Source: a virus
Virus record (IMG/VR): IMGVR_UViG_3300008624_000626
Span: 1 to 61,089 of that record
Reading direction: 5' to 3' (one strand)
Length of the DNA stretch: 61,089 nt
Part shown: positions 6,052-44,898 of the stretch, in pieces
How the letters are laid out: each line of letters opens with the position of its first letter
How positions within the stretch are numbered: position 1 is the stretch's first letter
Notes under the pieces: model-generated
Seen by the model: the letters and a program-made list of their open reading frames with translations, nothing else
Databases searched by the model: none
What the model was told of the DNA's origin: nothing
Translations under genes and position numbers: made by a program

Positions 6052-8553
6052 ATGTCGACACCAGTGTGGTCAACCACAGCAGGTAAACTTGCATCAATTG
6101 ATGAGCAAGTGTCATATTCGCTACAATTAGAAGCGAATACAGCCGATTCTACGGCTATCACTTACTCCGTAATTGCAGGGAGCCTACCTTCAGGAATGGA
6201 ACTTACTTCAGCAGGCTTACTTACAGGGATTCCAGCTGAGGTTTCGAAAAGAACTAGATACACCTTCGTTGTACGTGCCACAGCTGGAACAACAATTACA
6301 GATAGAAATTTTTATTTAGATATAGAAGGTGCAGACGCACCAACATTTACAACTGCATCAGGACAACTCCAGTTAGATGACTCTTCAAGAGTTGGTTTAT
6401 ATTGGATATTGGATGGATCATCGTTATCATTCCAAATAGCGGCAAGTGATACAGATACAAGAGCAGGACAATCGTTAGTTTATGAAATTGTACAAGGTGC
6501 ATTACCACCAGGTATTACTATGTCAGCAACATGATTTATATCTTGAATAGTACAACTTACAGAAGATGAACGATATGGACCACAAGGTGGATATGCAGAA
6601 GATTATGATGATTATGTTTACGATAGAACAGTATTTTCAAAATCTAGATCAATAAATTATGATTTTATAGTAAGAGTTTCAGATAGTACAAGTTATGTAG
6701 ATCAAAATAATTCAATATTTGTTTATACAGCAGATTATTGGAGAGTATCAAATTCAGAAATTACAGTAGACATGAATGAAATAGGGGGTTCAGCATTAAC
6801 AGTTGATTTTAGTGCTAATAGAAGACCAATTTTCAAAACAGCATCAGCCCTTGGAACATTTAGACATGACAACGCCTGTGTAATTAAAATTGACGTTGAA
6901 GATTTTGATCCATTACAAGCAGATTTAGAATATTCAATCGTATCAGGTGCTATGCCTTCAGGTTTATCAATTAATATTAGCTCTGGAGAAATATATGGAA
7001 CATTGGCAAGACAGACCGCTATTGAAACAAGTTATACATTTACAATAAGAGCGAACAGAGTTGTATCAACTGGAATAAATGTGTTCACTGATCAAATATT
7101 TACAATGAAAGTAATTGGTGAAATTGATATTGGAATTACATTTACAACTCCAGCAACCATTGGTACATTGACGGCAGATATTCCAAGTATATTATCATTT
7201 TCAGCAGTAGCAGAAGAAACAAATAGAGTTTTAACTTATAGTTTAACATCTGGATCGTTGCCAACAGGTATAACATTATCTCCACAAGGAAATTTAATAG
7301 GAACAATTGATCCAAGTGACTTTACTGATTCAACTCGAGCATATACATTTACAGTTACGGTTAGTGACCAATATCAGTCATTAGCAACATCAAAAGAATT
7401 TACATTAAACATTGACATACCATATACTACTATTGAATATGGTAATATGACCGGACATTCAACATCTTTTATTGATCAAAATATATTTTATAATATTGCA
7501 CAAGATCCAAATATTAATTCTCCTGAATATATTTACAGACCAGAGGATAATAATTTTGGAATGAAACTAAATCCTGAAATGTTAATGATGGCAGGATTAC
7601 AAGCACAAACACTTACAGCATTCCAACAACAAATGGAACAAAATCATGCTCCAAAAACTTTATATTTTGGAGAATTAAAAACAGCAGTTGCAAAAGAAAA
7701 CAATATTATAAAATATGAAGTTGTTTATCTTGAAATGACAGACAAACTTGTTAATAATGATGGTACAGCAATTAGTTCATCGGTTTCATTAAGAACAGAT
7801 GTTGCAAAACCTATGTTAGGTCCAAGAGCAGGAACAGTTAATTTAACTACTGATATGGATGACTTCAATATTACAACCTCTGGCGGATTATCATTTAGCA
7901 CGTCTGGCTCTAAAGTTCCATATGCTGGTCAAATTTCAGCAGATTTAGATTATATGGCAACACTTTATCCAAATGCAGTTGCAAATATGAGAAGTAGAAT
8001 GAAAACTTTAGGACATAAAGAATGGGACCATTTGCCTTTATGGATGAAAACAACACAATCAGGTGACCTAGCACCATTGGGGTTTGTATTAGCAGTACCT
8101 ATATGTTATTGCAAGGCAGGTACATCTGCTTTGTTAAAGAAAAGAATAAAAGATAAAGGATTAATTTTTAGAAATATTGACTTTATTGTAGATAGATATC
8201 AAGTTAGTAAAAGCAAAGTTACACCTGCTAAATTCACAGCAGATGGCTCAACTACTACATTCCAATTAGATGAGATTGTACATGAAGAAGATATTTTGGT
8301 TAAAGAAGGTAGTGATATTGTTTATGCTGGAGACGGAGTAACAGCAGACAATAACCAAAAGCCAACAGATTTAACTGCTGATGGTGAATTAAGATCTGCA
8401 GACCATGAATATGGCATTGAACTTACTCATAATACTTCAACTAGTAAAACTACAATTACTTTTACCAAAGAAGTACCGTCAGACGGCACTATTATTACAG
8501 TCGAAAGAGCTAACGATAAATATCTTAAATTTAGAAGCAAAGGAATATTTTAA
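6052..8553 (+). CDS. Virion protein with He_PIG/cadherin-like repeats, interrupted by two in-frame UGA codons
   Basis: One frame runs from the ATG at 6052 to the TAA at 8551-8553, broken only by TGA at 6532-6534 and 6544-6546. Between and after the stops the frame encodes protein that matches the gene's style (IVQLTEDERYGPQGGYAEDYDDY). The N-terminal half contains repeated Ig-like He_PIG motifs, LPxGhxhxxxGxhxG. In the interrupted repeat (LPPGITMSAT-stop-FIS-stop-IVQ) both stops occupy the two conserved glycine positions of that motif. The C-terminal half is a separate domain (about 350 residues). Read through, the product is about 833 residues and probably a fibre or baseplate component. Alternatives are a broken gene, a sequencing or assembly artefact, or UGA recoding. 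The ATG at 6772 is an internal methionine, not a convincing separate start. Confidence 0.65.
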
Positions 8554-13510: not shown

Positions 13511-14237
13511 TGAAGGATTAAAAGCTGGCGATTTAGAAGGCGTTGTTTCAAAAACGTTTTCAGTAGATCGATACAAATCAAAAATGGGCGATGACAGGAA
13601 CATTATGGTTCTTGCATTTGTTGTTAATGGTTTAGCACCAGCAAAAGATTTAGAACGTTTCGCTGAAACTGGATACAAAGAAGTATTAGATGCAGATGCT
13701 ACGCCAGGCACAATGGCAGATGGCAAACATAGAGTATTTGTTGAGTTTCAAAGAGATGAAAAAGTTGATCGACACATTTATAAATTTTTAGAAGACCTTA
13801 AAAAATTAACTAATATTGAGACGTTCCATTTTACATATCATAAAAGAGATGTACCATTTGAAGCATCAGCAAAGAATCTAGCGGATGTATTACCAAGAAC
13901 ACCAATAGCATACACACAAAAAATTAGTTCATTAAGATTAGGTGAAGTAAAAAATTTCTTTGATAAGTTTAATATGATGGAATTTAAGTTAGATAACAAT
14001 ATTGTTGACATAAAAAAACAAAATGCAGAAGCACTTAAATTTGAATTACACGCATTTGGTGATACACAAATGATAATAAACGAAGTAAAAGCATTTAAAA
14101 TAGATCAAGAAGCAATGAGTGAGTGTATCTACCTCACAAAATATTTTGGACCATATCAAATTACCAAAACTACAGAAGACAGATTCATTTTTTCTAAAGG
14201 CCAAGAGTCGGCTTTGTTAAGTAAAAGTGGATGGTAA
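13497..14237 (+). CDS. Conserved phage protein (246 aa)
   Basis: The product (FNEGLKAGDLEGVVSKTFSVD, later FLEDLKKLTNIETFHFTYH) looks alpha/beta, with two halves that each end in a mixed charged helix. No catalytic motif is recognisable. Overlap with the genes on both sides places it in one operon with the 13028 gene and the endolysin. It could be structural. Confidence 0.5.
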   Translation: MQQFNEGLKAGDLEGVVSKTFSVDRYKSKMGDDRNIMVLAFVVNGLAPAKDLERFAETGYKEVLDADATPGTMADGKHRVFVEFQRDEKVDRHIYKFLEDLKKLTNIETFHFTYHKRDVPFEASAKNLADVLPRTPIAYTQKISSLRLGEVKNFFDKFNMMEFKLDNNIVDIKKQNAEALKFELHAFGDTQMIINEVKAFKIDQEAMSECIYLTKYFGPYQITKTTEDRFIFSKGQESALLSKSGW

Positions 14238-18514: not shown

Positions 18515-18729
18515 AAAAGAAAAAGGTATGGAAAATTTTAGATGGAACTTACAAGAAACCAATAGGCAAAGAGGATGTAGAGAGACTAATAGCGGCAGTA
18601 CAACAGGAATGCTATTGGGACGACAGAGATGTGGAAACTTGGGACGAAATAAACTCGGGCAAAATAGATTGGAGTGGAGATGTTAGAAGCAAACGAAAGC
18701 CTAGAAAACATATTCGAAAACGCAGTTAA
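18481..18729 (+). CDS. Small basic protein overlapping both neighbours
   Basis: An 82-residue frame (KKKVWKILDGTYKKPIGKED, then CYWDDRDVETWDEI) that overlaps the deformylase end by 34 bases and the Clp start by 50 bases in other frames. The middle part looks like real protein; the ends are Lys/Arg-rich. Without it a 165-base gap would separate two tightly packed genes, so I think it is real, with an uncertain start. Confidence 0.45.
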   Translation: MGHGKEKNNRIKKKKVWKILDGTYKKPIGKEDVERLIAAVQQECYWDDRDVETWDEINSGKIDWSGDVRSKRKPRKHIRKRS

Positions 18730-21022
18730 AGAAGCAGAGAATAGAAAACACGAATACGTTACTATTGAACACGTACTTCTTGCACTTATAAAAGACGAAC
18801 ATATTAGCACAACACTAACTGAATTTAAAATAAATGTTGCAGGACTAATAAAAGATATTGCAGAATACCTTGATACTAAATGTAATGATATTATTTCAAA
18901 AGCTACAACTAAGGTAGTTCCAAGAAAAACTGCTTCATTAGAAAGATTAATGAATAGAGCGTTTACTCAAGCACTATTCCAAGGTAGACAAGATGTATCA
19001 TCAATTGATATTTTAATATCTATATTTTCTGAAAAGAAAAGTTATGGTGCATTTTTCTTAAAGAAACATCAAGTAAACAAACAAGATTTACTTGATTTAG
19101 TATCAACTGAAACTATACTCGATGAAGGTATGGCAACTTTAGGTGGAGGTTTAAGTGGAGGTCAACCACAATCAGAACAAAAACTAAGACCTAACCAAGC
19201 AGATAGAGTATTAAAGAGTTATTGTGAAAATTTAAACCAAAAATATTTTGATAAGAAAATTGATCCTGTTATAGGCAGAGAAGACGAAACAAATCAATTA
19301 AAACAGATATTAGCAAGAAGAAATAAAAATAATGTATTAATAGTAGGTGATCCTGGTGTTGGTAAGACAGCAGTGGTAGAAGGACTAGCAAGACGTATTG
19401 CAAAAAACAAAGATGATGTACCTGAATACATTAAGGATCACATAGTTTGGAATTTAGATGTAAACTCTTTAATAGCAGGATCTAAATTTAGAGGAGATTT
19501 TGAAGAAAGATTAAAACTAATTGTAAATGCATTAGACCAAAAAGGCAAATCGATATTGTTTATTGATGAAGCACATATGATGGTTGGTGCTGGTGCTACT
19601 GGAAGTGGTAATAGCATGGATATGGCTAATATGATTAAACCTGCATTACTAAAAGGTAACATAAAAGTAATTGCATCTACTACATGGGAAGAATATAGAA
19701 AATATTTTGAAAAAGATAGAGCATTAATGAGAAGGTTCCAAAGATTACAAATAGGTGAGCCTAAAAATGAAACTGCGATTAAAATATTAAAAGGTGTAAA
19801 ACAATATTATGAAAAGTTTCATAAATGCACAATTACTGATGAGGCTTGTGAAGACGCAGTAGAATATTCATCAAAATTTATAGCAGATAAAAAATTACCT
19901 GACAAAGCAATTGATATTATCGACGTTGCCTGTGCAAGATTAAGATTAAATGGAACTAAAGATGGTAAAATAGATCACGAAGAAATTATACACGAGATTG
20001 CGGCAATAACTGGTATTAGTATTGAACAATTATCTCAAAAACAAGCAAGTAATTTAAAAACATTAGAAGAAAAAATGAAATTACAAGTGTTTGGGCAAGA
20101 TAAAGCAATTAACACTATTGTAGACAAAATATTAGTTGCAAGAGCAGGATTAAAAACTTTAAACAAACCAATTGGTTCATTTTTATTTTTAGGACCAACA
20201 GGTTGTGGTAAAACTGAAACTGCAAGACAATTAGCAAAAACTTTAGGTGTTGAACTATTAAGATTTGACATGTCAGAATATCAAGAGAAACATTCTATTG
20301 CAAAACTAATTGGATCACCTCCAGGTTACGTTGGATTTGAAGATACTACAATGGGTGGTGGTATGTTTATAAACGAAGTAGAAAAAAATCCACACGCAGT
20401 TGTATTATTTGATGAAGTAGAAAAAGCACATCGTGATGTATCTAATATGTTGTTACAAGTTATGGACTATGGTACAGTGACTGGTTCTAATGGTAAAAAA
20501 GCAGATTGTAGGAATATTACACTTATTATGACTTCTAACCTAGGTGCAGAAGAAATGGAAAGAAACAGTATTGGCTTTGGTCCTAGTGAAAGAACAGGCG
20601 AAGATGATGCCGCATTAAAACGATTCTTCCCACCAGAATTTAGAAACAGATTAGATGCAACAATTAAATTTGATAAACTAGCAAAAGACACAATGAAATT
20701 AATTGTTAAAAAATTCTTAGCAGAACTTAATGCAATGACCATTGAGAAAAATGTAGAAGTTAATGCTACCAACGAAGCTATTGAATTTTTAATTAAAAAA
20801 GGATTTAATTCTAAAATGGGAGCAAGACCTTTACAAAGAGTTATTGATGATGAAATTAAAAAACCATTATCTCGAATGATCTTGTTTGGTGAACTTACAG
20901 AAGGCGGAATGGTAGAAGTAAATTTATCTAACGACGTTATACCAAAACTTACAGTTGCATTTAAAACAACTAAAATTATAGATAATTTTAAACCTAAAAT
21001 TAAAAATGAGAATCCATCATAA
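18680..21022 (+). CDS. ClpA-like AAA+ unfoldase with IGF loop
   Basis: The 780-residue product has a Clp_N repeat domain (1-150), then AAA D1 with GDPGVGKT (223-230) and FIDEAHMMVGAG, then D2 with GPTGCGKT (505-512) and LFDEVEKAH, and a Clp C-terminal domain. There is no ClpB-type middle domain. SIGFG at about 630-634 sits where ClpA/ClpX carry the IGF/IGL loop that docks on ClpP, so it probably feeds proteins to host ClpP. I chose ATG 18680 over the GTG at 18674 because GGAG at 18671-18674 is spaced properly. Confidence 0.88.
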   Translation: MLEANESLENIFENAVKEAENRKHEYVTIEHVLLALIKDEHISTTLTEFKINVAGLIKDIAEYLDTKCNDIISKATTKVVPRKTASLERLMNRAFTQALFQGRQDVSSIDILISIFSEKKSYGAFFLKKHQVNKQDLLDLVSTETILDEGMATLGGGLSGGQPQSEQKLRPNQADRVLKSYCENLNQKYFDKKIDPVIGREDETNQLKQILARRNKNNVLIVGDPGVGKTAVVEGLARRIAKNKDDVPEYIKDHIVWNLDVNSLIAGSKFRGDFEERLKLIVNALDQKGKSILFIDEAHMMVGAGATGSGNSMDMANMIKPALLKGNIKVIASTTWEEYRKYFEKDRALMRRFQRLQIGEPKNETAIKILKGVKQYYEKFHKCTITDEACEDAVEYSSKFIADKKLPDKAIDIIDVACARLRLNGTKDGKIDHEEIIHEIAAITGISIEQLSQKQASNLKTLEEKMKLQVFGQDKAINTIVDKILVARAGLKTLNKPIGSFLFLGPTGCGKTETARQLAKTLGVELLRFDMSEYQEKHSIAKLIGSPPGYVGFEDTTMGGGMFINEVEKNPHAVVLFDEVEKAHRDVSNMLLQVMDYGTVTGSNGKKADCRNITLIMTSNLGAEEMERNSIGFGPSERTGEDDAALKRFFPPEFRNRLDATIKFDKLAKDTMKLIVKKFLAELNAMTIEKNVEVNATNEAIEFLIKKGFNSKMGARPLQRVIDDEIKKPLSRMILFGELTEGGMVEVNLSNDVIPKLTVAFKTTKIIDNFKPKIKNENPS

Positions 21023-43447: not shown

Positions 43448-44898
43448 TGACAGAAAATAAAAGGCAAGAACATTTAGGAGATTTTAATCGAAATTTTGCA
43501 GTGTTCTTGCCTGCTATTTCCAATTTTTTTAATACATTTATATCCAGACAAAGAGTTACTAAAGGTACTCATATTCCAACAGAAAGAATTCCAAAAGGTT
43601 TAGACAGAGGAGTTGAAGGTTTAAACTTTATTAATCCAGACGAAGGTTACTTTACATATCCAACTGCATTATATTCAGCAGGACACGCTTGTTTAGATAT
43701 GGATAAAGTTACAGACAGAGATTCTATGTGTGTTAATAGAGATCGAAAATTTAGTACAATAGTAGGCGACTCTGGTGGATATCAGATAGCAAAAGGTGTT
43801 ATACAATTTGATTGGAAAGATTTTGAAGGTAACAAAGCAAATAAAGTTAGATCTAACATATTAAATTGGTTAGAACTTATTGCAGACTGGTCAATGACAT
43901 TAGATGTACCTACATGGGCGGCAGATGATTTAAACAGAGGCAAATCAGGATTAAACAGTTTCCAAGATTGTTTAGATGCTACAAAATTTAATAATGATTA
44001 TTTCCAAAAAAATAGATTAGGACAAACAAAATTTTTAAATGTACTACAAGGTGATGATTGGGAGACTGGAACAATTTGGTATGATCAAATGAAAAAATAC
44101 GAGTTTGAAGGTTGGGCATTTGGTGGTATTAATATGTGTGATATGGAAATACTACTTAAAAGACTAATTGTAATGAGAGATGAAAAGCAATTAGATGGCA
44201 AAGATTGGATTCACGTATTAGGAACATCACAATTAGATTGGGCTTGTTTCTTAACTGCAATACAAAGACAACTAAGAAAACATATCAATCCAAACGTTAC
44301 AATAAGTTTTGATTCAGCATCTGCATTTTTATCAACTGCAAACGGTTTAGTTTATACACAAAATACATTTACTCCAAGTAGATTCTCATTTATTATGGAT
44401 AAAGCACCAGATGACAAAAAAATGAAAGGTTCAGATATACCTTTTCCATTCCACAGTCAAATTGGAGATAGATTAACAATGGGAGATGTTTGTTGGTATG
44501 GTGAAGGCGACCTAAATAAAAACAACAAAGAAAGTACAACTTCCTGGGATAGTTTCAGTTATTGTTTAATGATGGCTCATAATGTATACAATCAAATCAA
44601 AGCAGTACAAGTAGCAAATGATTTAAACGATATTGAAAGCATAAAATATAAACCACAAGTAGGACATTGGAGGAAAACAAAAGGATCAGATACAACCGAT
44701 GAAATGAGTAATTTTGTTCCAAGAAATATATTATATTTCAATACACTTGTAGAAGAAGTATTCACATCAGAGAATCCCATGGAAGTTATCAATAATGCTA
44801 GACCATTTTTAGCAGATATAAGAGGAACACGTTGGGCAAGACATACAGGTGGTGGTAAAGGTAAAAACAACTTTAGTTCATTATTTGAAGGAGGATAA
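43447..44898 (+). CDS. dpdA: DpdA-like DNA 7-deazaguanine transglycosylase
   Basis: The 483-residue product is a TGT-fold protein: GDSGGYQ (107-113, D108), TLDVPTW (D153), VLQGDDWE (about 199-206), WAFGGINM (223-230) and TISFDSASAF (D289), in the order of the tRNA-guanine transglycosylase active site. The TGT zinc-binding Cys cluster is not visible, as in phage DpdA proteins. DpdA exchanges guanine in DNA for a 7-deazaguanine. FolE, QueD-like and QueE genes in the same window would supply the precursor. It starts at TAATG of the clamp gene. Confidence 0.85.
   Translation: MTENKRQEHLGDFNRNFAVFLPAISNFFNTFISRQRVTKGTHIPTERIPKGLDRGVEGLNFINPDEGYFTYPTALYSAGHACLDMDKVTDRDSMCVNRDRKFSTIVGDSGGYQIAKGVIQFDWKDFEGNKANKVRSNILNWLELIADWSMTLDVPTWAADDLNRGKSGLNSFQDCLDATKFNNDYFQKNRLGQTKFLNVLQGDDWETGTIWYDQMKKYEFEGWAFGGINMCDMEILLKRLIVMRDEKQLDGKDWIHVLGTSQLDWACFLTAIQRQLRKHINPNVTISFDSASAFLSTANGLVYTQNTFTPSRFSFIMDKAPDDKKMKGSDIPFPFHSQIGDRLTMGDVCWYGEGDLNKNNKESTTSWDSFSYCLMMAHNVYNQIKAVQVANDLNDIESIKYKPQVGHWRKTKGSDTTDEMSNFVPRNILYFNTLVEEVFTSENPMEVINNARPFLADIRGTRWARHTGGGKGKNNFSSLFEGG

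Follow-up and report, generated by a model that had tools for sequence, protein, structure and literature searches.

UGA has been described as a glycine codon in BD1-5/SN-2, SR1 and Gracilibacteria (PMC4032931). A second body of work concerns sequencing error: in an old Illumina chemistry, late cycles turn G into a false T call, followed by A and C (PMC2745764). Both bear on a gene in a stretch of viral DNA of 61,089 nucleotides (the window, to which all positions refer) taken from IMG/VR record IMGVR_UViG_3300008624_000626, where two in-frame TGA codons stand in place of glycine codons. We compared this locus with its near-identical records, with more distant relatives and with the use of TGA elsewhere in the window.

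Results

An Ig-like repeat gene interrupted by two TGA codons

The frame at 6052–8553 comprises 834 codons, including the final TAA, and its internal stops are exactly two, both TGA. The original prediction, that this frame is open save for TGA at 6532 and 6544, is thus confirmed in the letters. The interrupted Ig-like repeat translates as LPPGITMSAT-stop-FIS-stop-IVQ, and the ORF listing splits the frame into pieces of 160 aa (6052–6534) and 593 aa (6772–8553). The features are as follows:

6052–8553, + strand: gene for a He_PIG (putative Ig) repeat protein, 833 aa in the near-identical records; the window copy is interrupted after 160 aa
6532–6534, + strand: in-frame TGA, codon 161; GGA in 5/5 near-identical records and GGN in 80/80 relatives (best 80 of 127)
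6537, + strand: third window-private change, between both stops; the window codon is TTT, against TTA in the five near-identical records
6544–6546, + strand: in-frame TGA, codon 165; GGA in 5/5 near-identical records and GGN in 80/80 relatives (best 80 of 127)

The copy in one near-identical record, L011, is uninterrupted (833 aa) and contains four He_PIG (PF05345) stretches (E 8.4e-30). Its profile score of 103.5 bits, against a curated cut-off of 24, places it in the family, and the two window pieces score 58 and 57.5 bits. With its four stretches the intact L011 gene resembles other He_PIG repeat proteins, and the sole oddity that we saw is the interruption private to the window. A tail or virion role for the product is plausible, because the three upstream neighbours (1674, 3090 and 4145) match the PHROG ‘baseplate wedge tail fiber protein connector’. 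In the phages collection, neither blastn with the gene nor tblastn with the protein encoded by 6772–8550 gave a match. Elsewhere in the window, 18674–21022 has a strong match to PHROG 4871, an ATP-dependent protease (E 3.1e-250).

Three private changes within 13 bases

Five IMG/VR records (L002, L003, L004, L008 and L011) are near-identical to the window; they come from five differently numbered data sets, although they may stem from related samples. Across the 2,502-base gene, the differences between the window and each of them are confined to 6532, 6537 and 6544; at these sites all five have G, A and G, against T, T and T in the window. A stretch of 13 bases contains all three changes, and no other position of the gene differs in any of the five records. 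Both stop codons are GGA in every one of them, and the change at 6537 gives Phe in the window versus Leu in the five. This third change was not part of the original prediction, nor was the finding that the records compared show all three to be window-private. In collections from which the record of the window itself and its very close neighbours may be missing, so that another triple-T record could be hidden, a viral_contigs pattern scan found 0 occurrences of the triple-T patch, and a degenerate form of the patch matched only the same five contigs. The degenerate pattern was not found in genome_contigs.

Compared over the whole window, the records behind these contigs cover it and differ from it to the following extent:

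G001 (behind L002): 61,089 bases covered (all), 8 differences, no gaps
G005 (L011): 61,089 bases covered (all), 24 differences
G004 (L008): 36,060 bases covered, 5 differences
G003 (L004): 12,303 bases covered, 4 differences
G002 (L003): 12,773 bases covered, 24 differences including one gap position, mostly near the contig end

A site was called window-private when it is spanned by two or more records, all of which have the same letter, different from that of the window. Five sites qualify (2371, 6532, 6537, 6544 and 24930), and under uniform scatter three of five fell inside 13 bases in 3 of 2,000,000 trials. Uniform scatter is a weak null, and one generous to an artefact, because other records also differ from the window in clusters. 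All five private sites alter the protein, two of them by nonsense. The synonymous share is accordingly 0/5, compared with 15/21 for the other sites at which G001 or G005 differs from the window (hypergeometric 0.007) and 6/9 once a 12-site tract at 44502–44673 is removed (hypergeometric 0.028); these counts were made by hand, on sites that are not independent, and with G002-only sites left out. The contrast gives weak support to unselected errors. The two private differences away from the gene, at 2371 and 24930, are both amino-acid-changing (Val versus Asp and Ser versus Asn).

Clusters of differences are also present in the other records. At 13559–13574, G005 differs at three sites within 16 bases; only one relative could be aligned there, and it carries G005's letters at all three, so this cluster points to real variation. 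The window patch is unlike it in that neither TGA occurs in any of the 80 relatives (best 80 of 127). At 44502–44673, G005 has 12 differing sites in 172 bases, mostly synonymous, in a record that is for the most part nearly identical to the window; this may reflect a local change of strain or a recombined tract. Near the contig end of G002, at 2358–2445, there are 18 substitutions and a gap pair relative to the window, with 11 of the 18 substitutions to T on that record's strand. We dropped this contig end as a precedent for erroneous runs of T because several of its variant bases are common to other relatives, and its variants are therefore at least partly real variation.

Glycine codons in the wider relatives

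A viral_contigs scan with the 593-aa piece confirmed 127 relatives, the best 80 of which were compared codon by codon over loci with 813 to 833 of the 833 columns aligned. Among these best 80 of 127, codon 161 is GGA in 53, GGT in 17, GGG in 6 and GGC in 4, and codon 165 is GGT in 28, GGA in 27, GGC in 17 and GGG in 8. Both stop columns are therefore glycine in 80/80, in agreement with the earlier claim that the stops fall on conserved glycines. Of the same 80, one shares the window codon, TTT, at the intervening position 162. None of the best 80 of 127 has a stop in the aligned gene, which was the outcome of the comparison of relatives that the original prediction had proposed. A programmed readthrough codon would be kept as a stop in relatives, and at codons 161 and 165 the count of stops is 0/80 (best 80 of 127). 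Nucleotide column counts at 6532 (G 57, T 3 and C 10) were skewed by blastn gap placement and are superseded by the codon-level result.

TGA as a terminator in the window

In a genome with the UGA-to-glycine code of SR1, Gracilibacteria and BD1-5 (NCBI table 25), UGA would not serve as a terminator. Among the 107 ORFs listed in the window, 72 forward ORFs were taken as genes, and these end in TAA (53), TGA (11) or TAG (8). Beyond the 11 TGA ends, the next in-frame TAA or TAG comes at a median of 9 codons (maximum 25), and beyond the TAA-ended ORFs at a median of 10. Because the frame closes so soon past them, the 11 TGAs are true gene ends; the original prediction, too, had judged whole-genome recoding unlikely. 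For three of the 11 TGA-ended ORFs the relatives were examined as well. Two share the position of their TGA with 55/75 and 59/66 of them; for the third the count is 14/43, while another 22 of the 43 have TAG or TAA 3–4 codons further on and 7 have an unaligned C-terminus. Such a code would also place in-frame UGA at glycine positions of many genes; across the 72 ORFs the only internal TGA codons are the two at 6532 and 6544, the other 71 ORFs being stop-free by the listing method, so that the distance to the next stop is the better test. A genome recoded in this way would further be expected to have a tRNA-Gly with the anticodon UCA; ARAGORN detected no tRNA genes, either in the window or in the two longest records (103 kb and 137 kb, searched whole), which may be incomplete.

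Discussion

Judged from these sequence comparisons, the triple-T patch is very probably an artefact of one assembled record rather than a new reading of the genetic code. The most likely explanation is an error in base calling or assembly, because the five near-identical records and the other relatives carry ordinary glycine codons at both positions. A sequence artefact had been offered last in the original prediction; it is now the best supported of the possibilities named there, the absence of the patch from the five near-identical records being indirect evidence for it. The 13-base patch, comprising both TGA codons and the T between them, would then consist of wrong letters in a single assembled record. 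These may go back to miscalled bases, each turned into T, in a single read or a handful of reads, or else to a mistake in consensus building or assembly where coverage was thin. The phage itself would then make a normal Ig-repeat protein without interruption, both columns being glycine, and would not recode UGA. For the all-to-T character of the patch, the late-cycle T miscalling of an old Illumina chemistry serves as an analogy. Like error clusters in metagenome contigs, it is private to one record, clustered and made up of one letter, and it breaks a gene that is intact in 80 relatives (best 80 of 127); the likeness is judged here by comparison of records. It counts against an artefact that a consensus normally outvotes single-read errors.

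The patch could instead be a genuine private nonsense allele, in which one multi-base mutation event produced both nonsense codons, the protein ends at 160 aa and the phage is either defective or tolerant of the loss. Multi-nucleotide mutations give clustered changes, and the three changes here do sit together; the window letters are also those of its IMG/VR record. We nevertheless consider such an allele unlikely. It is absent from every other record compared, namely the best 80 of 127 relatives, the five near-identical records among them, and those reached by the contig scans, and the 0/80 count of stops in the aligned gene also argues against it. Nor was a copying template found: the window contains the 13-base core a single time, and the G005 pieces compared lack it, on either strand. 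The idea of a recent double mutation thus survives in part, as the less likely private multi-base mutation, but the changes number three, not two. Two specific routes to such an allele were considered and rejected. For a template switch from another copy, neither the 21-base form, allowing up to 3 mismatches, has a second copy in the window nor does the 13-base core have one there or in the G005 pieces. Diversity-generating retroelements alter A positions, and this source was dropped because the base altered is G at two of the three sites.

Decoding of UGA as glycine, or readthrough, in the late gene 6052–8553 had been the more striking proposal. It would account for both stops lying on glycine columns and for the open frame beyond them, and such decoding exists in BD1-5/SN-2, SR1 and Gracilibacteria (PMC4032931). 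The likeness to the code of these groups extends to UGA at glycine positions of one gene. The window differs from them in that its UGA acts as a stop, the relatives have GGN at the two sites and ARAGORN detected no tRNA gene in the sequences searched, and on these grounds we reject recoding or readthrough as very improbable. All five near-identical records have GGA at both positions and the 75 other relatives have GGN (together the best 80 of 127), and the frames that end in TGA close within 25 codons, two such neighbours sharing that TGA with most of the relatives compared. The third change, at 6537, falls outside the glycine codons, and recoding therefore leaves it unexplained. Slightly more improbable still is a combination of the two alternatives, in which the triple-T allele is real and some host factor lets glycine or a different amino acid be inserted at UGA, giving a full-length protein, while the nearest relatives retain GGA.

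A local sequence error is thus our preferred reading, and it carries a caution for the interpretation of viral contigs. A local cluster of changes private to one record can mimic recoding when the stops that it creates hit conserved residues, and here an apparent reassignment at conserved glycines vanishes once near-identical contigs are compared.
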